Assembly (NCBI RefSeq): GCF_004137855.1
Contig: NZ_QBKB01000002.1
Coordinates: 1,584,750 to 1,648,749, forward strand
Reading direction: 5' to 3'
DNA length: 64,000 nucleotides
Origin: Methanohalophilus profundi
GTDB lineage: Archaea > Halobacteriota > Methanosarcinia > Methanosarcinales > Methanosarcinaceae
Both the position numbers and the translations under genes were made by a program. This document shows positions 3,318 to 59,743 of the stretch, piece by piece; within the stretch, counting starts at the first letter, position 1; each line of letters begins with the position of its first letter. Under the pieces are notes generated by a model. That model had not been told where the DNA came from, ran no database searches, and saw nothing but the letters and a program-made list of their open reading frames with translations.

Positions 3318-4790
3318 TCAATTTTTATCCAGGTCCAGGATAGAATATATTGTTTCCACATCCAGGGATTCTTCCATTAACTGTGCCAATTCTTCGTAAG
3401 GGTCATCTTCGAGGTCTTCCTCATTGTACTTGATTCCCCTTTTCTCCAGCAGATAGGATACAAAGGCTTTCCTTATGTTGGCATTGGAAAACAAACCATG
3501 TAGATAGGTTCCCACTACCATTCCGCTTTCATCCACACAACCATCGTCACCAAATACAGGGGCAGTTGAACCAGTATCTCCCATGTGGATTTCATAACCA
3601 CCTATGGTTTCACCTTCTATTGAATCAAAAAGAGGGCTTGCCCTGTTTACTTTCTTGGTTACCTGAACGGTTTTTTTCTTATATGCATCAAATATGGTAT
3701 GGATATCCAGCAGGCCAAGTCCTTCATATGTAGCATCTGCTTCCCCTTCAATCGCTGCATCTTCTATTTGTTTACCCAGCATCTGGTAGCCGCCACAAAT
3801 ACCCAGGATCGGTACCTTCCCGTACAGGGATTTTATCTTTTCAGCCATGCCGCTATCAAGCAAATCCTGCAAATCACTTATGGTGTTCTTGGTACCGGGA
3901 ATTATCACGGCATCAGGAGTGCCTAATTTATCATCCAGATCCACGTAGTGTATATTTACAAGGCGTTCCAGGGGTTCAAAATCTGTAAAATTGGATATTC
4001 TGGGAAGCCGGATCACAGCCACATCGACATCATACATTCCTGATGGAGATGACTTGTCCCCGATGGATACCGAATCCTCGGAAGGAATTCCGAGTTTTGA
4101 ATAGGGCATAACTCCCAGTACAGGAATGCCTGTTATCTGTTCCAGCTCTTCTACACCAGCCTGAAGTATGGTGGGATCTCCCCTGAATTTATTAATTATC
4201 ATTCCCCTGACATTTTGCCTGACATCTTCAGGCAGAAGCTGGATAGTACCATAAAGACTTGCAAAGACTCCGCCTCTTTCGATGTCCCCGACAAGTATTA
4301 TTGGCGCATTGGTGATCCTTGCAGTACCCAGGTTTACAATATCTCTTTCATAAAGATTTATTTCAGCTGCTCCGCCTGCACCTTCCATGACGATTACTTC
4401 ATAATCGTTTCCCAGTGTTTCAAGGGCCTGACGAAGTACACCATGAGTTTCCTCTATTGAATCGTAGTAGGCACCTGCGCTTTTGTCGGCATAAGGTTTG
4501 CCCATAAGTATGACCTGTGAAACCCTGTCACCTTTTGGTTTCAAAAGCACGGGATTCATCTCAGCTGTGGGTTCAACACCTGCAGCCATTGCCTGTATTG
4601 CCTGTGCGATTCCTATTTCCTTGCCATCCGTTGTGATCCACGAATTCAAGCTCATGTTCTGTGCCTTAAACGGGGCAACCCTGTAGTTGCGGGAAAATAT
4701 CCTGCAAAGTCCGGTGACTATCGCACTCTTGCCTACGTGCGATGCTGTACCCAGAACAAGTACACTTTTGGGAATACCATCTCTTTCCAT
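3318..4790 (-). CDS. cbiP: Cobyric acid synthase
   Basis: 490 residues, normal length for CobQ/CbiP. It amidates side chains b, d, e and g of adenosylcobyrinate a,c-diamide using glutamine and ATP. The N-terminal ATP-binding domain opens with a P-loop-like GTASHVGKSA; the C-terminal glutamine amidotransferase domain has the Cys nucleophile in GICGGYQMLG and the His in YLHGLF. It diverges from the cbiT operon across an 82-base gap holding a perfect 9-bp palindrome, which suggests shared control. Confidence 0.95.
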   Translation of the reverse strand: MERDGIPKSVLVLGTASHVGKSAIVTGLCRIFSRNYRVAPFKAQNMSLNSWITTDGKEIGIAQAIQAMAAGVEPTAEMNPVLLKPKGDRVSQVILMGKPYADKSAGAYYDSIEETHGVLRQALETLGNDYEVIVMEGAGGAAEINLYERDIVNLGTARITNAPIILVGDIERGGVFASLYGTIQLLPEDVRQNVRGMIINKFRGDPTILQAGVEELEQITGIPVLGVMPYSKLGIPSEDSVSIGDKSSPSGMYDVDVAVIRLPRISNFTDFEPLERLVNIHYVDLDDKLGTPDAVIIPGTKNTISDLQDLLDSGMAEKIKSLYGKVPILGICGGYQMLGKQIEDAAIEGEADATYEGLGLLDIHTIFDAYKKKTVQVTKKVNRASPLFDSIEGETIGGYEIHMGDTGSTAPVFGDDGCVDESGMVVGTYLHGLFSNANIRKAFVSYLLEKRGIKYNEEDLEDDPYEELAQLMEESLDVETIYSILDLDKN

Positions 4791-4816
4791 TTACAACAAC
4801 CTTTTATGTAGCTAGT

Positions 4817-12438: not shown

Positions 12439-13539
12439 TTAATGGATTATTGATAAAATATCGTCTGGCCTTGCCCGACGAACAAGACCACTTAATACAT
12501 CCTGTATTCCTTTTAGATTATTTGACGTGCCATCCAATACCATCAGGTTTGCCTTATGCCCTTCCCGCAGAGGGCCTTTTCCCTCCATCTCCAATATTGA
12601 TGCCCCATTAAGTGTGCACATTTTAAATACTTGTCTATCCTCAAGTCCAAATACCTTTGAAAGGAACTCCATCTCAGAGAACATATTTACAGAATTCAGC
12701 ATAACATTGTCAGTACCTACGCCCACATTTATACCGGCTTTTAACATTTCAGCAACAGGTGCCATCCCCACTCCTGTAAGGAAATTGGATCTGGGGCAGA
12801 CAACCACCGGAATAGATGCATCGGCAACGTTTTTGAGGTCTGACTGTACTGCCTGTGTCAGATGGACAAGCATATCCGGCTGCAGGGATAGTGCATCTTT
12901 GATATCGTGGCGGGATTTTTCACCGGCATGTATACAAAAAGGACTTCTGGATTTGTGACAGGTGTCTGCAATCTGTGCCAGTAGATTCAAATCCACATCA
13001 TGTGCACCGCTCATACCTATACCATCGGCATGGGAAAGGAGTAAGGAAACCCCCTCGTGCACAGGCATACTGAACTCCCTGCTGTCGGGTCTTGCAAATA
13101 TTCTGGAATCAATATCCATATCTTTTAATGCATCCTTCAGTGCCAGCACGCCTCTGGTCCCCCCTTCCCGGAAATCTGCAAAACCAGTGGTTCCGGTGGC
13201 AAGCATATCCCTGATGGAAAATTTCATATATTCTACAAGTTCCTTATCAGAAGTTTTTGCAAGGATGCGGTGTTTTAAGCCATCCGGTGGCCTGACCAGA
13301 CTGTTCAGGTCTCTCTGTATCACAAAATCCTCAGCCGGGCCTATACTGGGATCTTTACAAACCGAGTCCCCGATATGGGTGTGACAGTTGGTAAAACAGG
13401 GAGCAATAATATTTTCAGAAGATGTCGGCTCCTCACACACTTCATGTATGATACCATCCCGGATACATACATAACCCTTCACCAAAGACAGATCATCCCC
13501 CTAGAGGATGTTTCCATAAATAACCTGTTCGCGGCTCAT
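12439..13539 (-). CDS. Metal-dependent amidohydrolase with in-frame TAG codon
   Basis: Cyclic amidohydrolase of the ATZ/TRZ deaminase type: metal ligands in FTNCHTHIGD, His in CIHAGE, and GVGTDNVMLN. The probable start is the ATG at 13537-13539 (MSREQVIYGNIL); codon 13 is TAG at 13501-13503 and the frame then runs unbroken (GDDLSLVKGYVC) to the TAA at 12439. Without reading TAG, translation would have to start at a TTG (13485) and lose the first strand of the N-terminal beta-sandwich. Pyrrolysine insertion or read-through is likely. The substrate is unknown; adenosine- or thioadenosine-type deamination is typical of relatives. Confidence 0.83.
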
Positions 13540-13603
13540 TGAGGACATAATCCTGTATTCATATGTATTAATAACTAAAAAATTAACGCTGGATATTTCC
13601 TAT

Positions 13604-16142: not shown

Positions 16143-17462
16143 TTGGAAAAATTGCGGGCCATTGCAAAAAAGGCATCTGAAAAAATCAGTGAATATTCAC
16201 GTGTAAGACTCGTATCCCATAATGATGCAGACGGGATTACCGCAGCAGCTGTAATGTGCCATGCCCTGCTGAAAGAAGACATAGTTTTCCATGCAAGCAT
16301 TGTAAGCAGGCTAGATGAAGATGTTGTGGAAACAGTTAATAACAGCACTGATAATGGTGATCTCGTACTTTTCTGTGACATGGGAAGCGGCCAGCCTGAA
16401 TTGATTGAAAAAGTCAAAAATAACACCATAATAATAGACCACCACGCACCTTTGGGTGACACAACGGCACAAATAATGGTAAACCCTCATCTTGCAGACA
16501 TAGATGGTGCTTATTATATGTGTGCCTCAACAACTGCTTATGTTGTCGCAACAGAACTTAATCCCGAAAATAAAGAGCTTGCAGGGCTTGCAATTGCAGG
16601 TGCCATAGGGGATAAGCAACTTTTGACAGGGAGAATGGCCTGATCCTGAAAGAAGGAATTGAACATGGCTCTGTTTCCATAAGGAAAGGATTAAAGATCG
16701 GAGACGGTGACCTGGCAGAAGTGCTGGAAAAACACCTGAACCCTACCTTGACATAACAGGTGAAAAAGAAAAGATCACAAACTTCCTGAATATTCTGGGT
16801 ATCAGCGGCCCGATCGAAGAACTTGATGAAAACCAGATGAAAAAACTTACTTCTGCCGTGGCACTTAAACTGACAAAAACAGCCAGTCCTGAAGCAATTG
16901 ATGCCAGTATCGGTGAAGTCTGCATTCTCAACCACGAGACCATACCGAATGTCTATGACATGGTAACTCTTCTCAATTGCTGTGGCAAACTTGAGCGTGG
17001 AGGCCTTGCCCTTACTGCCTGTCTGAGAGATGAAAAGGCTGCAGAAGAAGGCTGGATACTTGCGGAACAATACCAGCAAGTTTTGATGGGGCAAATCAAA
17101 AAGGCAGAGAAGCAGATTCAAAAACGGCAGCATCTCAGGTACATTCAGGGGGAAGACATGGAAGCCACCGGCATGATCGCAGGTGTTGTCATCAGGTACA
17201 TTCACCCTGATCTGCCCTTCATTGCCCTGAACAAAGTTGATGATGTTGTTAAAATTTCAGGAAGAGGAACCCGCAAACTTGTAGACAGCGGCCTGGATCT
17301 TGCAGTTGCCTTAAGAGAGGCAGCTTCAGGGGTTGGAGGTAACGGAGGGGGCATAACATAGCATCCGGTGCGGCCATTCCTCCGGGAAGTGAAGAAGAGT
17401 TCCTGAAAGCCCTTGATACCATTATAGCAAAACAGCTGGGAAACAATGCAGATGAAAATTAA
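16143..17462 (+). CDS. RecJ-like DHH phosphoesterase (three frameshifts)
   Basis: Starts at TTG with AGGTGAAAG ahead. The DHH motifs are present (SHNDADGITAAA, DMGSG, IIIDHHAPLGD), then the DHHA1 domain ending GVGGNGGGHNIASGAAIPPG. This family includes the archaeal GINS-associated nuclease and other RecJ-like exonucleases. The frame breaks at three places, each repaired by adding one base: GGG at 16629-16631, CCCTA near 16744, and GGGGG at 17347-17351. The last one falls inside the conserved GGGH motif. All pieces read on without loss, so error is likelier than decay. The restored stop at 17462 overlaps pcc1. Confidence 0.85.
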
Positions 17463-17682
17463 AAGTACACTTTACCTGGCTGCCGGTCAAAGGGGCAAAA
17501 CAATTATCGAATCATTAAGACCGGACAATCTTGAGAATATGGAAAGTAAAACCCTCTGCGATGAAAATTCCATAACTTTGAAGACAGAAAAACTTTCTTC
17601 CCTGATATCTGTTACGGACGATCTCCTTATGAATGCCAAAATTGCCGAAGACCTGGATTTCAGTGGGGCAAAAAATGATTAA
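17452..17682 (+). CDS. pcc1: KEOPS complex subunit Pcc1
   Basis: A 76-78 residue protein with the Pcc1 signature: MKIKSTLYL at the start, IIESLRPDNLE, and SSLISVTDDLLMNAKIAED at the end. Pcc1 dimerises within KEOPS, which makes the t6A37 modification on ANN-decoding tRNAs. The ATG at 17446 is also possible; 17452 gives the family N terminus. It overlaps the restored end of the recJ-like gene and its own stop overlaps the next gene's start. Confidence 0.88.
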   Translation: MKIKSTLYLAAGQRGKTIIESLRPDNLENMESKTLCDENSITLKTEKLSSLISVTDDLLMNAKIAEDLDFSGAKND

Positions 17683-18210
17683 TTCATTCGAAGATTTAGG
17701 GGAGCAAATAAATTCGTGTACTGCATGCCAGCTCCATGAATCCGCAACCCACAAAGTAATAATGAAGGGTGGGAAAATCCAAAAGTACTTTTCATAGGTG
17801 AAGCCCCCGGCAAGAATGAGGATGCAAGCGGAATACCTTTCTGTGGCAGGGCCGGCAAGATTTTGGATGACATGATAGAAGATATGGATATTCAGCAGAA
17901 CGATTGGGCGGTGATCAATACTGTCAAATGCAGACCTCCTGATAACCGCAGGCCCCGTAAAGGAGAACTTGCCACCTGTCGGGCTTTTTTTGAAAGGCAA
18001 ATCGAAATGCTTGATCCAGATGTGATTATTCTGCTCGGAAATACTGCTGAGGAAGCTTTTTTGGGAAACAGGCAACTTCAATGGGGTGAATGCAGGGAAA
18101 TAGATGGGAAAAATGTGGTGAAATTTTATCATCCTGCAGCCCTCATCTATACTAAAAGTCGCCAGCCTGAACAGCAAGAGTTTATAGAAAAAAACAGTGC
18201 ATTATGGTAA
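17675..18210 (+). CDS. Family 4 uracil-DNA glycosylase (one frameshift)
   Basis: ATG at 17675 gives MINSFEDLGEQINSCTACQLH, with the first two Fe-S cysteines (CxxC). The frame then breaks near 17758; one extra A there restores NNEGWENPKVLFIGEAPGKNED. The rest has the family 4 motifs: the uracil pocket GEAPG...GIPFCGRAG, the other Fe-S cysteines in NTVKCRPPDNR and ATCRAFFERQ, and the HPAALIY catalytic-loop motif. It removes uracil from DNA. It overlaps the end of pcc1. Confidence 0.88.
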
Positions 18211-18333: not shown

Positions 18334-19842
18334 ATGGATCTGGAATTCAGGTTAAAAGCTGCCTTCAAAACCAGCGGGGACCCCGCACCCGCCGTAGATG
18401 CTATTCAGGAGTTTCTTGAGGGAGAAGCCCCAAAGGTACTCGCCAAAGGAGCACCAGAAGGGGAAGAAGCAAAAATTAAGAGCTGGAATGTAAAAGATAA
18501 CCGGATAGACCTTGAGATAGTCTCCGGCCGGTATGTCCGATCCCATGATGCAATTATCAGGCTGCGTAAACCTCTGCCGGCAAAATTGGAAAGGAATACC
18601 ATCTGGGCATCCGGGGTATTGATGTTGATGAGTTTGTCATTAAAATGGCTTCTGAAAAATCAGTCGGTGATCTGAAGATACCACATGTCAGTTCAATGGA
18701 TTATGACGGAGAATACATCACAATCAATCTGGATGTCGGACAGGCAGAACTTGAAAACCGTGTTCCTGACAGAATACTTACCCTTATGGAGGACAAGATA
18801 AGGGAAAAGGTCTATGGTGGCAAGACAGAACACTGGAACCTTCTATGGCAGAGTGAAAAAAAAGGCACATCCATTTGAGAAGGATCCTACCCAGGAAATG
18901 CTAGAAAAAGGGTGGATCAAAAGAGGAGCCAGCAGAGGGCAGTGGATTCACGGGCCGCAGTCCACGAAATTGTTCCGCACTTTTGAAAAGATAGTTCTCG
19001 AGGAACTTCTCGAACCCCTGGGATACCAGGAAATGATTTTCCCGAAACTTGTTCCCTGGGATGTATGGCAGAAGTCCGGGCATGCCAAAGGAGTCTATCC
19101 CGAAATCTACTATGTATGCCCCCCGAAGACCCGCGATCCGGAATACTGGGAAGAGGTCGCTGACCATTACAAGGTTACAAAAGAAGTACCTATAGAACTG
19201 ATCAAGGAAAAGATAGGTGATCCTATAGGTGGCCTGTGCTATGCCCAGTGTCCTCCCTTCTGGATGTATTTACAGGGCGAAACCATACCAACAGACTCGT
19301 TCCCCCTGAAAGTCTTTGACCGCTCCGGGACATCCCACAGGTACGAAAGTGGTGGCATCCACGGCATGGAACGTGTTGATGAATTCCATCGTATCGAGAT
19401 TGTCTGGCTGGGTACAAAGGAACAGGTAGTCAAAGCCTCAGAAGAGCTCCACGAACGCTATATGCATATCTTCAATGAAATCCTGGATATTGAATGGAGA
19501 AAAGCCTGGGTCACACCATGGTTCATGGCACAGGAGGGGCTTGCAGGTGTATCGGATGAGCAAAGTGCCGGTACTACAGACTATGAGGCACCCCTGCCAT
19601 ACAGGGGAGAGGACGGCGAATGGCTTGAGTTCCAGAACGTGAGTGTCAACGGGGATAAATATCCTTCCGGTTTTAATGTGAAAAGTCAGTCGGGAGAGGA
19701 ACTCTGGTCCGGATGTTCGGGTGTTGGGCTGGAAAGGTGGACCTCGGCTTTCCTTGCACAGAAAGGCTTGGATCCGGAAAACTGGCCGGTAGAATTCCGT
19801 AAGCGTTTTGGAGAAATGCCTGAAGGAATAAGGTTCTTCTAA
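18334..19842 (+). CDS. serS: Seryl-tRNA synthetase, rare methanogen type (two frameshifts)
   Basis: About 502 residues after repair. The N-terminal alpha-beta domain ([20 protein letters not shown]) and the catalytic core with Cys-coordinated zinc ([24 protein letters not shown]) are those of the type-2 SerRS known only from methanogenic archaea. The frame breaks twice: CTGCCGG at 18574-18580 lacks one G (expected PLAGKIG), and the A8 run at 18856-18863 has one A too many (expected [11 protein letters not shown]). An essential enzyme broken twice with no other loss points to sequence error. Confidence 0.9.
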
Positions 19843-23389: not shown

Positions 23390-23561
23390 TTGCTAATAAT
23401 AAAGAGATGCATTGTCCCAGCAGACAAATTATGAAGATATGATATAAATATAAATCCTTTTTCTTATCAATTCCGGCAAATGAGCGCCGGTTTGCCAGAG
23501 TATAACCAATAAGGAAAACTTATTTGACTGTTTGGAAAGAATACTTTATTGGGGAGTGGAT

Positions 23562-23846
23562 ATGAACGATCATTACTGCACAGAAGAAATAAACCATGTA
23601 CTCAGGTATGTGAATAATATCCCGATTTCGGGTAGATATCGGACCGAACTGGTACGATGGATAAATACCTATCTTGATGAAGAAAATGTCGAAAAAAGCC
23701 TTACAAATAAAAAGGATACATTTGACATGTCGGTAAAACAGGCAGCGCAAAGGGATCTTGAACTAACCATCCTTTTTGCCAAAAAAAGAAGACAGGACCA
23801 ATTCAGGAATAATTTTCCTGGAAGGGGAATTGCTTTTTCTGTTTAA
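23562..23846 (+). CDS. Hypothetical protein
   Basis: About 94 residues, not recognised. Start chosen at the ATG at 23562 because GGGGAGTGG precedes it; the frame is open further up to 23532. It is charged and helical, with a basic segment (AKKRRQDQFRNNF) near the C terminus and no membrane segment or cysteine motif. It stands alone between two minus-strand units. Confidence 0.55.
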   Translation: MNDHYCTEEINHVLRYVNNIPISGRYRTELVRWINTYLDEENVEKSLTNKKDTFDMSVKQAAQRDLELTILFAKKRRQDQFRNNFPGRGIAFSV

Positions 23847-23892
23847 CCTGCTCTATGAAAAGGTGAAGGCACAAAAACTTGCTGCCTGATAA

Positions 23893-25574: not shown

Positions 25575-26501
25575 TCAATTGTTTTTGGGAGATAACTGGG
25601 AAACGGCTTCTTTAACCAGCTCTTTTCCACCCATCTCAACAAGTCTCTTACCCAATTTTTCAGCATGCTCGCGATAATTATCCACAGGGATCGTCTCGTC
25701 CAGACGGATGTCCCGTTTCCCGTCAAGGGATAATATCTCGGCACGTATGTGTATCCTGTTGCCATTGTCCACAAATTCTGCAAATGAACCAACCGGTACA
25801 ATACATCCGCCTTCCACATCCCTGATCACCAGTCTCTCGACCTCTGTAGCGATGCGGGATTCGGTATGATCGATCTGAGAGCAGAGTAATTCCGCTTCCC
25901 CGCCTGCCAGGGTAACCACGGCAATGGTTCCCTGGTTGGCCGAGGGACAGAAACCATCGGCGTCCAGCCTGTGACATTCGATGTCCCAGCCCATGCGTTG
26001 CAAACCCGCTTCTGCCAGTATAATTGCATCATACATGCCGGATTCAAGTTTTTTAAGACGGGTATTTATATTACCACGCAGGTCCTGGACATCCAGATCC
26101 GGACGGTAGCGCAAAAACTGGGCCCGCCTGCGCATGGATGTTGTCCCCACAATTGCTCCCTCGAGCAATTCGTCAAGGGTTGAACCATCATTCGTGAGAA
26201 GTACGTCATGAGGAGAATCACGTTCGATCACTGCTGCGATGGAAAGTTCTCTGGGTCTTTCAGTGGGCAGGTCCTTCATTGAATGGACTGCAATATCAAT
26301 CTCCCCGGAAAGCATCCGGTCATCCAGTTCCCGCACAAAGGCACCAACACCCTCTACCTCATGGAGCGGGCGGTCAGTGAAGGTATCACCGCTTGTCTTT
26401 ATGATCTTGCGTGTAGTGGGGAAACCCCGGCTATCCAGGAGGCCCCCAACGGTCTTTGCCTGTGCAAGAGCCAGGTCACTTCCCCTTGTACCAATTATCA
26501 A
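25575..26501 (-). CDS. hemC: Hydroxymethylbilane synthase (porphobilinogen deaminase)
   Basis: 308 residues, full length. It joins four porphobilinogens. The dipyrromethane-cofactor Cys is in EGGCIVPVGSF, and the conserved Arg/Lys stretch is in RRRAQFLRYRPDLDVQDLRGN. Preceded by hemL with 14 bases between. hemD is not adjacent. Confidence 0.96.
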   Translation of the reverse strand: MIIGTRGSDLALAQAKTVGGLLDSRGFPTTRKIIKTSGDTFTDRPLHEVEGVGAFVRELDDRMLSGEIDIAVHSMKDLPTERPRELSIAAVIERDSPHDVLLTNDGSTLDELLEGAIVGTTSMRRRAQFLRYRPDLDVQDLRGNINTRLKKLESGMYDAIILAEAGLQRMGWDIECHRLDADGFCPSANQGTIAVVTLAGGEAELLCSQIDHTESRIATEVERLVIRDVEGGCIVPVGSFAEFVDNGNRIHIRAEILSLDGKRDIRLDETIPVDNYREHAEKLGKRLVEMGGKELVKEAVSQLSPKNN

Positions 26502-26515
26502 ACCAACACATCCTA

Positions 26516-27778
26516 TTAAAGGCAGGACTCATAAGCTTCAAAGGTCGCTTCCAGATCATCTTCGGTATGTGCCATAGAGAGGAAATTCGTCTCAAACTGG
26601 GAAGGGGGGATAAAAATTCCCTGGTCCAGCATTTTATGGAAGAAATTAAAATAGCCTTCCTTGTCACATTTGAGTACATCCTGATAATTTGTTGGCATAT
26701 CCCCAAAGAAGATCTTGAACATGGAACCCACACCTGAAACACTGTAATCCAGTCCTTTATCAGTGACCATCTCGGAAAGTCTGCTGCGCACATTTCGACC
26801 CATACTATTGAGTTTCCCATGAGCATTTTCCTTCTCAAGCACATCAAGTACTGCATGTCCTGCAGCAACAGATGCCGGATGACCACTAAAAGTCCCTGCC
26901 TGGTATACCGAACCGGAAGGTGCTATCATTTCGATGATATCTTTCCTGCCTCCGAAAACCCCTATGGGCATTCCTCCGCCGATAATTTTGCCCAGCGTTG
27001 TCAGATCAGGTGTCACACCATAATATTCCTGTGCACCGCCCATTGCAAGTCTGAAGCCGGTTATGACTTCATCGAATATGAGGAGAGTATCATATTCCTT
27101 TGTAAGTTTCCTGATCTCTTCCAGATAACCTTCCTGCGGCAATACCGGCCCGACATTACCCATTACCGGCTCCATGATGACAGCTGCTATATCATCGCTT
27201 GATTCAAGTAGTTCTGTCATGGTCTCGATATCATTATAGGGTGCCTGAAGAGTATGTTTGGTGAAATCCTGTGGTACACCCAGAGAGTCGGGTTTACCTA
27301 ATGTGGAAGCACCTGAGCCAGCTTTGACAAGTACTGAATCGTGAGCACCGTGGAAACCGCCTTCTATTTTTACAAATTTGTTCTTTCCTGTATAACCACG
27401 TGCTGCCCGCAGGGCACTCATTGTGGCCTCGGTACCTGTGGATACAAAACGAAGCATATCGATGCCTGGATATGCGGCTGCAATCCTTTCGGCCAGTTTG
27501 AACTCGGACTCTGTGGGGGTTCCATAGAGCCATCCCTTTTCAAGTTGATCACTTATTGCTTTCTTGACCACGGGATTTGCATGACCCAGCATATTGGGGC
27601 CGTAACCGAGGCAGTAATCGATGTATTCATTACCGTCAACATCTGTAATACGGCATCCGGAAGCTTTCTCGGTGTAGAAAGGATAGGGTTTGATTGCTCG
27701 TACCGGACTGCTAACACCACCAGGGAGATATTCCCTGGCCTTTTCAAACATTGCTTTTGATTTTTCCAGATTGACCAT
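26516..27778 (-). CDS. hemL: Glutamate-1-semialdehyde 2,1-aminomutase
   Basis: About 420 residues from the ATG at 27778 ([14 protein letters not shown]); the longer open frame upstream runs into hemB and lacks homology. PLP-fold class III aminotransferase with the Schiff-base Lys in [14 protein letters not shown] and the DEVITGFR motif. It makes 5-aminolevulinate from the HemA product, completing the C5 route. Confidence 0.95.
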
Positions 27779-27797
27779 GTAATCACACCAATAAATT

Positions 27798-28784
27798 TCA
27801 TTCATGCAGTAATTGTGCCATTTCCTTGGCAAAGTAAGTAATTATCATGTCGGCTCCAGCCCTTTTTATTGACATCAGGGATTCGTACATGACCTTTTTC
27901 TCATCCAGCCAGCCTTGCTGGGCGGCTGCCTTGAGCATGGAATATTCCCCGCTGACATTGTAAGCCGCAGTTGGCATACCAAACTCCTGTTTTATCCGGT
28001 AGATGATATCAAGGTACGGAAGAGCCGGTTTTACCATGACGATGTCGGCACCTTCCATAATATCCAGTTCTACTTCCCTCAGGGCCTCATCCGAATTTGC
28101 AGGGTCCATCTGGTATGTAGAGCGGTCCCCGAAACAATAGCATGAATCCGCAGCATCCCTGAAGGGGCCGTAAAATGCGGAACAGTATTTTGCAGCATAG
28201 GACATAATTGGCACATCACTGAAATTTTCCTGATCCAGGGATTGCCTGATTGCACCCACCACGCCGTCCATCATACCGGAAGGGGCTACCATATCTGCAC
28301 CCGCCCTGGCATGGCTTGCCGCAATCTCGCCCAAAATGGGTAGAGTTTCATCATTAATCACATCATGGGTTTCATTATCAATAATCCCGCAATGGCCATG
28401 GGATGTATATTCACACATGCAGACATCGGTAATCACAACCATGTCGTCACCAAGTTCCTCCTTGATAGCACGCGTGGCCTGCTGGACAATATCCTCATCC
28501 CCGCAAGCACTGCTTCCCTTTTCATCCTTATCCGAAGGAATGCCGAAAAGCATCAAAGAACTGATACCCAGGTCTGCCATATTCCTGGCCTCATTGACAA
28601 CCTCGGAAAGGGGCAGTCTCAGGACACCTTCCATGGAAGGTACTTCAACTATGGATTCAGCAGTTTCGTCAACAAACATCGGATAGATGAGGTCATCAAC
28701 CCCCAGGGAAGTTTCACGTATAAGATTACCTATCTTTCCGTTCCTGAGCCTGCGCATTCGAATATTTGGGTACATTGGTATCAC
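27798..28784 (-). CDS. hemB: Porphobilinogen synthase (5-aminolevulinate dehydratase)
   Basis: 328 residues. The zinc-type Cys cluster is present ([13 protein letters not shown]), with the catalytic Lys in [11 protein letters not shown] and a second Lys in [15 protein letters not shown]. It condenses two 5-aminolevulinates. Lies between hemA and hemL in the operon. Confidence 0.96.
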
Positions 28785-28790
28785 AAGTCC

Positions 28791-30062
28791 TTATTTGCAA
28801 TTTTCCTTTTCTTTTTTAGCATAGGGTTTGATGTTAAAAAGCTTACAGGCCGAATCAAGAAAAGCCTCATCATTGTATTCAGCTGCATTACGTAACACCT
28901 TGGTAGGTTCTGCCAGGACTTTGTTTGCAATCGCCCTTGTCAGATCATCCAGGACCTCGCATTCCACATCCCCAATTGTGTGATAAGCTCCCAACCTGTT
29001 CACAGCCCTATCCATTTCATGCTTTCGCAGAGTATATATCTGGCTGTAAAGTTCGGACAAAAGAGCATCTGCCTTCTGTCTTTTGTACTGGTTAATGAGC
29101 ATTTTGTATTCTTCATCAATTATAGTTTCAACTTTCTTTGCCTCTTCCATTCTCATCTGGAGATTGCGCTCATTAATTACCCTCAGGTTATCGATGTTAC
29201 GCAGGATAACTCCGGGAAGGCTTTCAACTTCGGGATCTATGTCCCGGGGACTGGCGATATCTATCAGCAGAAGATTATCGTTCCTGTTCTTGAGGGATTT
29301 TTCCACAGTTGCTTTCTTCAGGACATAATGGGGGGCAGATGTAGCACTGATTATGACATCGGCCTGCTGTGTATAGCGATCAAGACTCATGAAATCCACG
29401 GCCAGACCTCCCAGCTCATCTGCAAGTACTTTTGCCTTCTCATATGTGCGGTTTGCCAGATACACAACATTCATGTCCCTGTGTGATAATGCCCGGGTCA
29501 CAAGAGTGCCCATCTCACCGGTGCCAATTACAAGTATATTACGTCCTTGCAGGCCTTTTAACATTTCATCGGCAAGATCCACTGCAGCAGATGCAATGGA
29601 TACAGAACCCCTGTTGATGTTGGTTTCCGTACGGGCTCTTTTACCCACCTGGATCGCCTTGCTAAAAGCGGTCTCCAGGATTTTGCCCATTGTACCTGCA
29701 TTCCGGGAAAAAGTGAACAAATCCTTTATCTGTCCCAGGATCTGATCTTCTCCTATTATCATGGATTCAAGGCCACAGGAGAGTTTTAAGAGGTGATATA
29801 AGGATTCTTCATGGTCATAAAATTCGACAATGCGGGAAGAAACGCCCATTTTTTTTGCAAAATGAAAAAGGACACTGCTTCCTTTAGGAGATACCACATA
29901 CATTTCCAGTCGGTTGCATGTCTTAAGGACTGCGCATTCGTACACGAGCTCATGGGAACTTAGCTGGGAAAGTATATCCTCGATTTCACCCTGCTAGGCA
30001 TCTTCCATTTCCTCCACTGTTGCCTTTGCATGGGAAATAACCATGCTAGATATTTCAGTCAA
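28791..30062 (-). CDS. hemA: Glutamyl-tRNA reductase with in-frame TAG codon
   Basis: Reduces glutamyl-tRNA to glutamate-1-semialdehyde. The start is the TTG at 30060-30062, with GGAGG at 30069-30073 six bases ahead. The first residues (MTEISSMVISHAKATVEEMEDA) match the family N terminus; codon 23 is TAG at 29994-29996, and the frame then continues QGEIEDILSQLSSHELVYECAVLKTCNR, holding the catalytic Cys. The NADPH-binding GTGEMG and the C-terminal dimerisation helix follow. A start after the TAG (GTG at 29943-29945) would drop the first strand of the catalytic domain. UAG is probably read as pyrrolysine. Confidence 0.93.
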
Positions 30063-30064
30063 TG

Positions 30065-30781
30065 TTATCCTCCGTTATTCGAGCAATGATCCAGCTGCTC
30101 CTTTGAATCTTTGTCTGCGCGATTCCCAATGTGCTCCAACATTATATCGTATGCTATATTATACGCTTTTTCATATGACTCTTCAAAAGCATCCCATACT
30201 TCTCTCCTGTCCAGTACTTCCCACAGGATCTGTCTCCGAAGTGACTGGTCGGCAATATGCTTTTTCACTTCGGTGCGCAATTCATCCTGTAGATAGGCCA
30301 TTTCCCCGTATTCCGGGGTGATGGTATGCTCAAGCTTTATGCGGGTGTATTTTGAGAGAGCGGGACTGTGTCCCAATGTGGAAATACCTACCGTTACAGG
30401 TCCGCGCTTTATCACCGAAGGGGTTATCACATCCCCTTTAGAATCCACGGAATTCACAAATATATCCATGTCAGAGGCTATCAGGTGTATTTTTAGGTTC
30501 AATTCCTGGTCATTGGTAGCAGGTATGACCAGAAATGCTCCTTCAAGATAACTGCGAATCATATCAGAGGATATTTCCCTTACATTTATCTGCACAATAT
30601 CGATTTTATTGGATTCATAAAGGGCAAGGATCTTTTCGGTAAAATCTTCGCTGATGACGGTCACATTAGCAAAATTGGAAAACAATGTGGCTTTGCGTTG
30701 TCCTACACTACCTCCTCCGAAAATCACTATCTTCCGGGAAGATAAATCAAGAAAAAGCGGCATATATCGGCGATCATACAT
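30065..30781 (-). CDS. Precorrin-2 dehydrogenase / sirohydrochlorin ferrochelatase-like (Met8p/CysG N-domain)
   Basis: 238 residues: an N-terminal Rossmann domain (IVIFGGGSVGQRKA) with NAD-dependent dehydrogenase features, the central VDSKGDVITPSVIKRGPVTVGISTLGHSPALS motif, and a helical C-terminal tail. It oxidises precorrin-2 to sirohydrochlorin and may insert iron, feeding the AhbAB decarboxylase encoded just upstream. It ends two bases before hemA starts, and the hemA ribosome site lies inside this gene. Confidence 0.92.
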   Translation of the reverse strand: MYDRRYMPLFLDLSSRKIVIFGGGSVGQRKATLFSNFANVTVISEDFTEKILALYESNKIDIVQINVREISSDMIRSYLEGAFLVIPATNDQELNLKIHLIASDMDIFVNSVDSKGDVITPSVIKRGPVTVGISTLGHSPALSKYTRIKLEHTITPEYGEMAYLQDELRTEVKKHIADQSLRRQILWEVLDRREVWDAFEESYEKAYNIAYDIMLEHIGNRADKDSKEQLDHCSNNGG

Positions 30782-33677: not shown

Positions 33678-33705
33678 CCTATGGCCATCTCAAAGAGGGT
33701 AATCG

Positions 33706-34583
33706 ATGGATATTGATAAATGGGACGAATATCGGAGTATAAACAAAGCACTAATTGACTTTGTGGAAGAAATTGACAACGGTTCCAATATGAAGAAAGT
33801 AGTTGCCCACATATGTCAATCCGGCGGGAAAAAAACCCGTCCTGTGATCCTCCTCTTGCCATCTCGTATATGTGGCAGTGAAATTGGAAATGCCCTTGAT
33901 GCTGCTCTTTCAATTGAACTTATCCACTCTGCATCCCTTATTCACGATGATTTGCTGGATAGGGGTATATTGAGAAGGGGAGCTAAGACTGCCCATGAAG
34001 TATATGGTACCCCTGCAGCAATGCTTGCGGGAGATTACTTGATATCCAAGTCCATTGAACTAATATCTGCATACGGCAAGGAAGTAGGCATGGAATTCGG
34101 CAGGGCAGGTATGGAAATGGCCGAAGGCGAGGCATGGATGTAGATTTGCTGGAAAAGAACAGCAACAATCTTGCTGAGTATTTCAATTGTATTGAAAAGA
34201 AGACTGCTTCACTTTTTGCTGCCTCGGCAGCGATGGGGGCCTATATTGCAGGAGCAGATGAGGATACAGTTTCTAAATTCAGGCTCTTTGGCAATAAACT
34301 CGGAACTGCCTATCAAATCGTTGATGATATGCTGGAATACACCAGTACGGTAAATAACAAGGAATCAATACACATGTCCCCTTCGCTGGTAGATATATAC
34401 AGGCAGGATATGGCTGATTCAAAAGCAATAGAAAAAACCAGGGAAATTGTTGAACAATTAGTTTCTGAAGCACATGAAATAGTCGATCATTTCCCGCCTT
34501 CCCAATCTCAAAATAGATTACATGAGATTACCAATTATGCCACAAAAGGCCTTTTCCCTGAAGTTGGAACAGGGAAATGCTAA
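33706..34583 (+). CDS. Long-chain prenyl diphosphate synthase (one frameshift)
   Basis: Trans-isoprenyl diphosphate synthase fold. The first Asp-rich motif is HDDLLDRG and the second VDDMLE. The residues four and five before the first motif are Ser and Ala, small side chains that in this family allow chains longer than C20. The frame breaks near 34133; one added base after GAGGC gives GEAMDVDLLEKNSNN and restores one protein of about 292 residues. As read, the first part ends in TAG, which is not a true stop here. In Methanosarcina a geranylfarnesyl (C25) synthase is proposed to serve methanophenazine; the same role is plausible. Confidence 0.85.
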
Positions 34584-59404: not shown

Positions 59405-59743
59405 TTACAGTATGCATGAACCATCCCTTAGCATATCTCCATTGCCCTGTCCATTGCCCTGTCCATTGCCCTGTCCATATCCAAGGGAATTATCATTGAT
59501 ACCATCACCGTCTTCATCAATGAAATTGTCACAGACTCCATCACCGTCTTCATCAATGAAATTGTCATTGATACCATCACCATCTTCATCAATGAAATTG
59601 TCACAGACCCCATCACCATCTACGTCTATGAAAGAAGCACTTGTTCCGTTCCCTATTCCCTGACCTGCAGCCATGGCAGATACTGTTAAAAGACTAACTA
59701 ACATGACTGCCACAGCAATCACACTAAATGTTCTTATTTTCAT
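59405..59743 (-). CDS. Secreted protein with calcium-binding DxDGDG repeats
   Basis: 112 residues. A signal peptide (MKIRTFSVIAVAVMLVSLLTVSAMA) is followed by five DxDGDGxxDN units, alternating VCDN and INDN, then three GQGN units. The DxDxDG pattern is that of EF-hand loop or thrombospondin type 3 calcium sites. The DNA shows 36-base repeats in a 72-base higher-order unit, plus three copies of a 12-base repeat near 59450-59475. Probably a secreted or surface protein; partner unknown. Confidence 0.7.
   Translation of the reverse strand: MKIRTFSVIAVAVMLVSLLTVSAMAAGQGIGNGTSASFIDVDGDGVCDNFIDEDGDGINDNFIDEDGDGVCDNFIDEDGDGINDNSLGYGQGNGQGNGQGNGDMLRDGSCIL
59450..59630. repeat. Tandem coding repeats in calcium-repeat gene
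   Basis: Three near-identical 12-base units (ATTGCCCTGTCC) followed by about four 36-base units (CATCACCRTCTTCATCAATG core) that alternate in two types. Such runs can change copy number by slippage. Confidence 0.7.

Follow-up and report, generated by a model that had tools for sequence, protein, structure and literature searches.

An in-frame TAG codon in the single hemA gene of Methanohalophilus profundi and its probable reading as pyrrolysine

Introduction

HemA, the glutamyl-tRNA reductase, stands at the head of the pathway that leads to F430, corrinoid and siroheme and is required for all three. The sole hemA gene found in the genome of Methanohalophilus profundi has a TAG in frame at codon 23, which raises the question of whether the organism itself carries this codon and, if it does, whether the codon ends translation or is read as an amino acid. 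A first-pass annotation of the region had proposed that HemA carries pyrrolysine and that tetrapyrrole synthesis is thereby tied to pyrrolysine supply. The window analysed here is the whole stretch of 64,000 nt at positions 1,584,750-1,648,749 of contig NZ_QBKB01000002.1 (assembly GCF_004137855.1). The genome of the window is labelled G000 and its contig C2; the assembly comprises 4 contigs and 1.83 Mb, with a completeness of 89.98. The congeneric genomes G002, G004 and G005, with which it was compared, are single contigs.

The hemA gene and its frame

The presence of an in-frame TAG in hemA is confirmed. The gene lies on the minus strand and its features are listed in Table 1. The start, read from the sequence, is the TTG at 30062-30060, and the terminator is the TAA at 28793-28791. 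Within the 424 codons of the frame, stops occur at codons 23 and 424 and nowhere else. The TTG start with GGAGG six bases ahead, as described in the first-pass annotation, is borne out by the sequence and kept in 8/8 Methanohalophilus genomes, and so is the frame that opens beyond the TAG and runs past the KTCNR motif to the TAA. The frame matches the profile TIGR01035 with 375 bits (cut-off 209.55), and the product contains PF05201, PF01488 and PF00745, which are the N-terminal, NADP-binding and dimerisation domains. PF05201 has one match only in the genome of the window, and this is hemA. The match to the solved enzyme of Methanopyrus kandleri (1gpj) spans residues 2-387. Residues S6, H11, E20 and C49 are invariant among 18 aligned HemA sequences, and C49, the Cys of the KTCNR motif, is presumably the catalytic one. 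The closest named records are those of M. euhalobius and Methanohalophilus sp. RSK, both at 98% identity. The ORF upstream of hemA is taken here to be precorrin-2 dehydrogenase/siroheme-synthase-like, and the hemB, hemL and hemC names of the three downstream ORFs are presumptive, assigned from the sequences.

Table 1. Position and strand of hemA, its elements, its neighbours and a second gene with a private TAG (coordinates of the window).
Feature	Position	Strand	Description and evidence
hemA, glutamyl-tRNA reductase	28791..30062	-	423 codons + TAA, TTG start, one internal TAG; TIGR01035, Pfam
Ribosome-binding site GGAGG	30069..30073	-	Six bases ahead of the hemA TTG; read from sequence
In-frame TAG, hemA codon 23	29994..29996	-	TGG (Trp) in relatives; sequence and congener comparison
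KTCNR motif of HemA	29910..29924	-	Sequence; alignment
ORF upstream of hemA	30065..30781	-	PF13241; ORF list
ORF downstream of hemA, hemB-like	27798..28784	-	ORF list
ORF downstream of hemA, hemL-like	26516..27832	-	ORF list
ORF downstream of hemA, hemC-like	25575..26501	-	ORF list
Amidohydrolase-family gene	12442..13548	-	Private TAG at codon 16 (G004 numbering); TAC/TAT, Tyr in three relatives; Pfam

The sequence is coding before and after the TAG. All 15 flanking residues on each side are identical in the three congeners compared, and 75-82% of the hemA substitutions relative to three congeners fall at third positions. The homologous protein runs stop-free at 97-98% identity in five congeners, which shows that the frame is not open by chance.

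Origin of the codon

The comparison of HemA from related genomes at this position was named in the first-pass annotation as a check. Codon 23 is TGG in the seven other Methanohalophilus genomes, so that the TAG is private to one of the eight, and it differs from TGG by a single G>A. A search of 111 genomes of the family matched hemA in 109 (two were without a match, and in G099 the match starts only at residue 84), and an internal TAG was present in the genome of the window only. One other family genome has a HemA match with one internal TAA (G059:C2:663086-664342).

Of 80 HemA loci, 72 start near enough to be scored at residue 23 by offset, a procedure that assumes no gap for distant rows; the 8 later-starting loci were left out. 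Trp (TGG) occupies the position in 63/72, and the other nine have Arg (3), Ser (2), Ala, Thr, Gly or Leu. The residue of the M. kandleri enzyme (1gpj) aligned to this position is Arg. TGG in the congeners, together with varied residues elsewhere, points to a single G>A change at a tolerant site, which took place either in the lineage or in the assembly.

Capacity to decode UAG as pyrrolysine

UAG is readable as pyrrolysine in this organism. The first-pass annotation had made its reading depend on the presence of pylT and pylS, and the full pylTSBCD set was found at G000:C2:818001-838000 (locus L092): a tRNA-Pyl with anticodon CUA, PylS with 370 bits, and PylB, PylC and PylD, each above the curated cut-off. 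The N-domain model PF21360 for PylC gave nothing over threshold in the genome; this apparent absence is a shortcoming of the model, since the NCBIfam PylC model matched. Both MttB (PF06253) genes of the genome have one internal TAG each. With the complete pyl set at hand, a real TAG would most likely be read through as pyrrolysine. To this extent the proposal of pyrrolysine in HemA stands; it is weakened as to the codon itself, which could be a base error in an indel-rich assembly.

No stable RNA structure of the kind associated with programmed recoding follows the UAG of hemA, and the fold of the 103 nt from the TAG is not unusual (z 0.43). In M. acetivorans, an amber codon introduced in a reporter is read as pyrrolysine at 20-30%, with most of the product terminated; replacement of the PYLIS element of mtmB reduces but does not abolish pyrrolysine insertion, and a pylT mutant grows on methanol with no apparent defect (PMC2933860). 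The pyrrolysine peptide of MttB was measured in M. portucalensis (PMC4928046).

Close to where the PylB family match ends, the pylB frame (L092:10282-11439) has a TAG, beyond which it continues over the start of pylC. In some other Methanosarcinaceae pylB is terminated by TAG (PMC2933860), and the pylB TAG of the present genome may serve as a stop as it does in those relatives.

TAG as a terminator

UAG is almost out of use as a stop in the genome of the window. Among 398 conserved ORFs, with G004 as the reference, the terminator is TGA in 219, TAA in 177 and TAG in 2; at the aligned ORF ends in G000, TAG is found in 2 of 396. Each of the two TAG ends belongs to a methyltransferase frame interrupted at a shared TAG, and beyond it 162 and 111 further codons are open. 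The methyltransferase names are presumptive; the two TAGs are pyrrolysine codons. Taking the ORFs of G000 as the reference instead gives 11 TAG ends among 403. These comprise the two methyltransferase codons, six ORFs that reach a TAG, out of frame in G004, after a one-base gap, a beta-lactamase-fold gene (counted below as a private TAG), one antisense-looking ORF and one with GAG in G004, the TAG of this last row lying five codons ahead of the ORF end. A looser earlier count had TAG ending 4/381 ORFs in G004. Avoidance or rarity of TAG as a stop is stated for the Methanosarcinaceae and the seventh order in a published account (PMC3941956).

Private in-frame stops across the genome

The TAG of hemA could be a sequencing or assembly error, in which case the organism has TGG, its hemA is ordinary and the TAG is one slip among those of the indel-rich, probably unpolished assembly. 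We take this possibility seriously, while holding it to be less likely than a real TAG. Errors would be expected to give TAA and TGA as well as TAG, with a TAG share of 0.43 as calculated from the codon make-up and the substitution spectrum. When at least two reference genomes were required, G000 had 4 TAG and 1 TAA in 84,169 codons and G002 had 1 TAG and 1 TGA in 88,216 codons; none was found in G004 (87,958 codons) or G005 (80,592 codons). The TGA of G002 lies in an ORF of 109 codons with a third-position share of 0.25-0.33 that is probably non-coding. The excess of G000 over the three single-contig genomes (256,766 codons) has a Fisher p of 0.004, which rises to 0.012 when the doubtful TGA is counted. 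Either errors or a lineage more tolerant of TAG would account for this excess, and since errors predict it, it counts against a real TAG.

The composition of the private stops argues in the other direction. The curated tally for the sampled part of G000 is 8 TAG, 1 TAA and 0 TGA (p 0.006). It combines the two-reference sites, the single-reference sites and two sites confirmed against five congeners, after 11 rows had been dropped by judgement because they lay before the likely start, in a short ORF or in an antisense-looking frame, or because the stop was common to relatives. The dropped rows are four TAG (1350779, 1481783, 1508886 and 1598352), four TAA (1235112, 1525779, 1629418 and one at codon 23 of 213) and three TGA (1382373, 1382544 and 1625006). 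Without any curation of the two strict scans, TAG accounts for 12 of 20 (p 0.09), and the five two-reference sites taken alone give 4/5 TAG (p 0.11). Looser scans, in which the flank and start rules were lax or absent, are without a TAG bias (6 TAG, 10 TAA and 6 TGA in one, 5 TAG, 4 TAA and 4 TGA in another); the additional rows of the loose scans break one or other of these rules. The TAG bias at clean sites speaks for real, tolerated TAGs, and its dependence on curation makes that support weaker.

The kept TAGs lie in hemA and in genes for CofD, an amidohydrolase, a CLC-CBS channel, UDP-glucose dehydrogenase, an HdrD-like protein, a beta-lactamase-fold protein and a YkgJ-like protein, and the kept TAA lies in a Cache-type sensor gene; all of these names except hemA and amidohydrolase are presumptive. 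The TAG of the UDP-glucose dehydrogenase gene is counted from one reference genome and that of the YkgJ-like gene from one or two, depending on the scan. At the private TAGs of the heterodisulfide-reductase-like Fe-S gene (G000:C2:1193339) and the beta-lactamase-fold hydrolase gene (1197496; both in locus L227), five congeners have GAG or GGG and CAG, respectively. The single-contig genome G002 also has a private TAG, at codon 81 of 209 in a flavin-reductase-like gene (G002:C1:1209904), where three relatives have Leu; as far as the sequence goes, this suggests that drift to private TAGs occurs within the genus. A second candidate in G002, in a hydroxylamine-reductase-like gene, was an alignment artefact of an in-frame insertion and was dropped.

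Assembly quality and the base call

The base call is the weak point of the case. Of 283 ORFs aligned to G004 in both genomes, G000 has internal frame-breaking gaps in 51, of which 35 shift the frame overall, and G005 in 8, of which 2 do so. A less sharp contrast in the same direction comes from other pairings over the ORFs of G004, with 77/334 in G000, 27/303 in G002 and 18/277 in G005. Such indel-rich ORFs indicate an assembly with many small errors, as do the six sampled ORFs that run into an out-of-frame TAG, and the completeness value and the surplus of private stops also weigh on this side. Within the window, a gene at 33703-34580 (+), which we take to be polyprenyl (GGPP) synthase-like, lacks one base compared with G004 and is split by this deletion, probably an assembly error given that the gene is of an essential type. 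Single-base indels relative to G004 were seen in four more window genes, all on the plus strand, at 16143-17459 (three deletions), 17633-18207, 18334-19839 and 23502-23874. The contrast is small, however, in the 58 ORFs also present in G001, with gaps in 11 (G000), 7 (G001) and 4 (G005).

In hemA itself no indel was seen relative to G004, and among the seven other curated TAG genes six are likewise free of frame-breaking gaps. In its private substitutions G000 has a spectrum like those of the other genomes, and errors of substitution do not show up clearly; its private ratio of nonsynonymous to synonymous changes (0.31, against 0.24-0.30 in the others) nevertheless leaves room for some tens of miscalled bases. 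A methylation-linked hot spot of error at Dcm-like CCTGG (CCWGG) sites was considered and rejected, G>A at position 4 occurring in 5 of 352 sites against a background of 1.3%.

Interpretation

The evidence favours a true TAG, which is the likelier case, short of proof. Two pulls act on these odds in opposite directions: the rarity of TAG as a true stop on one side, and the frequent frameshifts and the unbiased loose scans on the other. A real TAG that is decoded as pyrrolysine and was reached by neutral drift from Trp23 is the explanation we consider moderately probable. A recent G>A mutation would have turned the Trp23 codon of the only hemA into TAG in this Methanohalophilus lineage. At UAG23 the release factor would face competition from tRNA(CUA) charged with pyrrolysine, and complete glutamyl-tRNA reductase would result, bearing pyrrolysine at a tolerant site near the start of the N-terminal domain, with the side chain where M. 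kandleri HemA has Arg. The change would be neutral or nearly so, allowed by the near-vacated stop codon, and would be no evolved control. The sequence shows the TAG and its one-base difference from relatives, the single hemA, the full pyl set, the other TAG genes and the rarity of TAG as a terminator; a correct base call, translation as pyrrolysine and a working enzyme are points that we infer. By analogy with the introduced amber codon, loss of product to termination would be costly in an essential enzyme, which is an argument against a real TAG.

Selection for the codon, so that pyrrolysine in HemA couples the synthesis of tetrapyrroles (F430, corrinoid) to pyrrolysine supply and to growth on methylamines, has a biological fit and no computed support. 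Pyrrolysine enzymes act with corrinoid proteins whose cofactor needs HemA. The TAG, however, is private (1/109 in the family, 1/8 in the genus), residue 23 is variable, with six other residues in nine of the 72 relatives, and the RNA fold after the TAG is ordinary. The private codon and the variable residue leave the coupling put forward in the first-pass annotation unsupported and indicate drift at a tolerant site instead; the sister TAGs in unrelated genes likewise point to drift. We consider selected coupling very unlikely. Termination at a real TAG, giving a hemA null or a shorter HemA from the GTG at 29945 (codon 40), is very unlikely as well: an open frame does exist from this GTG, but no GGAGG stands ahead of it, residues 1-39 would be dropped although they align to 1gpj from residue 2 and include the invariant S6, H11 and E20, and a true null is implausible where the genome has one match only to the enzyme on which F430, corrinoid and siroheme depend.

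Comparison with known systems

Neutral drift to a pyrrolysine codon in hemA would differ from the established use of the residue. In MtmB, MtbB and MttB, UAG is read as pyrrolysine by the same pylTSBCD, and genes of the mttB family with TAG occur in this genome. Pyrrolysine in the methylamine methyltransferases is conserved and thought to be catalytic, whereas the TAG of hemA is private, lies at a variable site and has no known catalytic part. A closer likeness is offered by Thg1 (tRNA-His guanylyltransferase) of M. acetivorans, likewise an in-frame amber in a housekeeping gene of one species of the Methanosarcinaceae, outside methylamine metabolism. Three sources describe Thg1 as having acquired a pyrrolysine codon, explained as neutral evolution (PMC6471195, PMC2933860, PMC3639795). 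Thg1 is reported there to be made as one chain, whereas hemA is known here from its sequence, and both gene and genus differ. As expected of a neutral codon of the Thg1 type, the TAG of hemA is confined to one lineage, with TGG in 7/7 congeners and no second case among the 109 matched family genomes. Amber avoidance in pyrrolysine-using archaea is matched by the rarity of TAG as a terminator here; the published work concerns stop usage (PMC3941956), whereas in the present genome the codon, hardly used as a stop any longer, seems to be returning to genes with a sense meaning. A search that reached few subscription journals found no literature joining pyrrolysine and glutamyl-tRNA reductase.

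It is possible, though doubtful, that UAG is effectively a pyrrolysine sense codon proteome-wide, drifting into housekeeping genes (hemA and those for UDP-glucose dehydrogenase, CofD, the heterodisulfide-reductase-like protein, the chloride channel and others), and that the pyl genes are essential on every substrate. Some archaea are said, in a recent proposal, to read all TAG codons as pyrrolysine. The proposal was sought in the literature and not found; if it is in print, a proteome-wide sense UAG in this organism would be a case of it. If HemA contains pyrrolysine, the pyl genes would be needed on all substrates, since the one hemA supplies an enzyme that F430 and corrinoid synthesis require. 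A real codon would then make pylT necessary even on methanol, unlike in M. acetivorans. An essential enzyme would need pyrrolysine, and an expansion of the code that M. acetivorans can do without on methanol would have turned essential, a step in codon reassignment caught as it happens. Gene finders that truncate such genes at the TAG would, if the codon is real, give reason for a warning. A wrong codon, by contrast, would only add to the errors of an assembly that has many.

Other features of the window

At 4498-4812 (+) a TAT>TAG difference relative to G004 lies at codon 63 of 106, in a frame that is without a Pfam match and may be no gene. Tandem repeats with units of 12 and 36 bases occupy positions 59438-59633.
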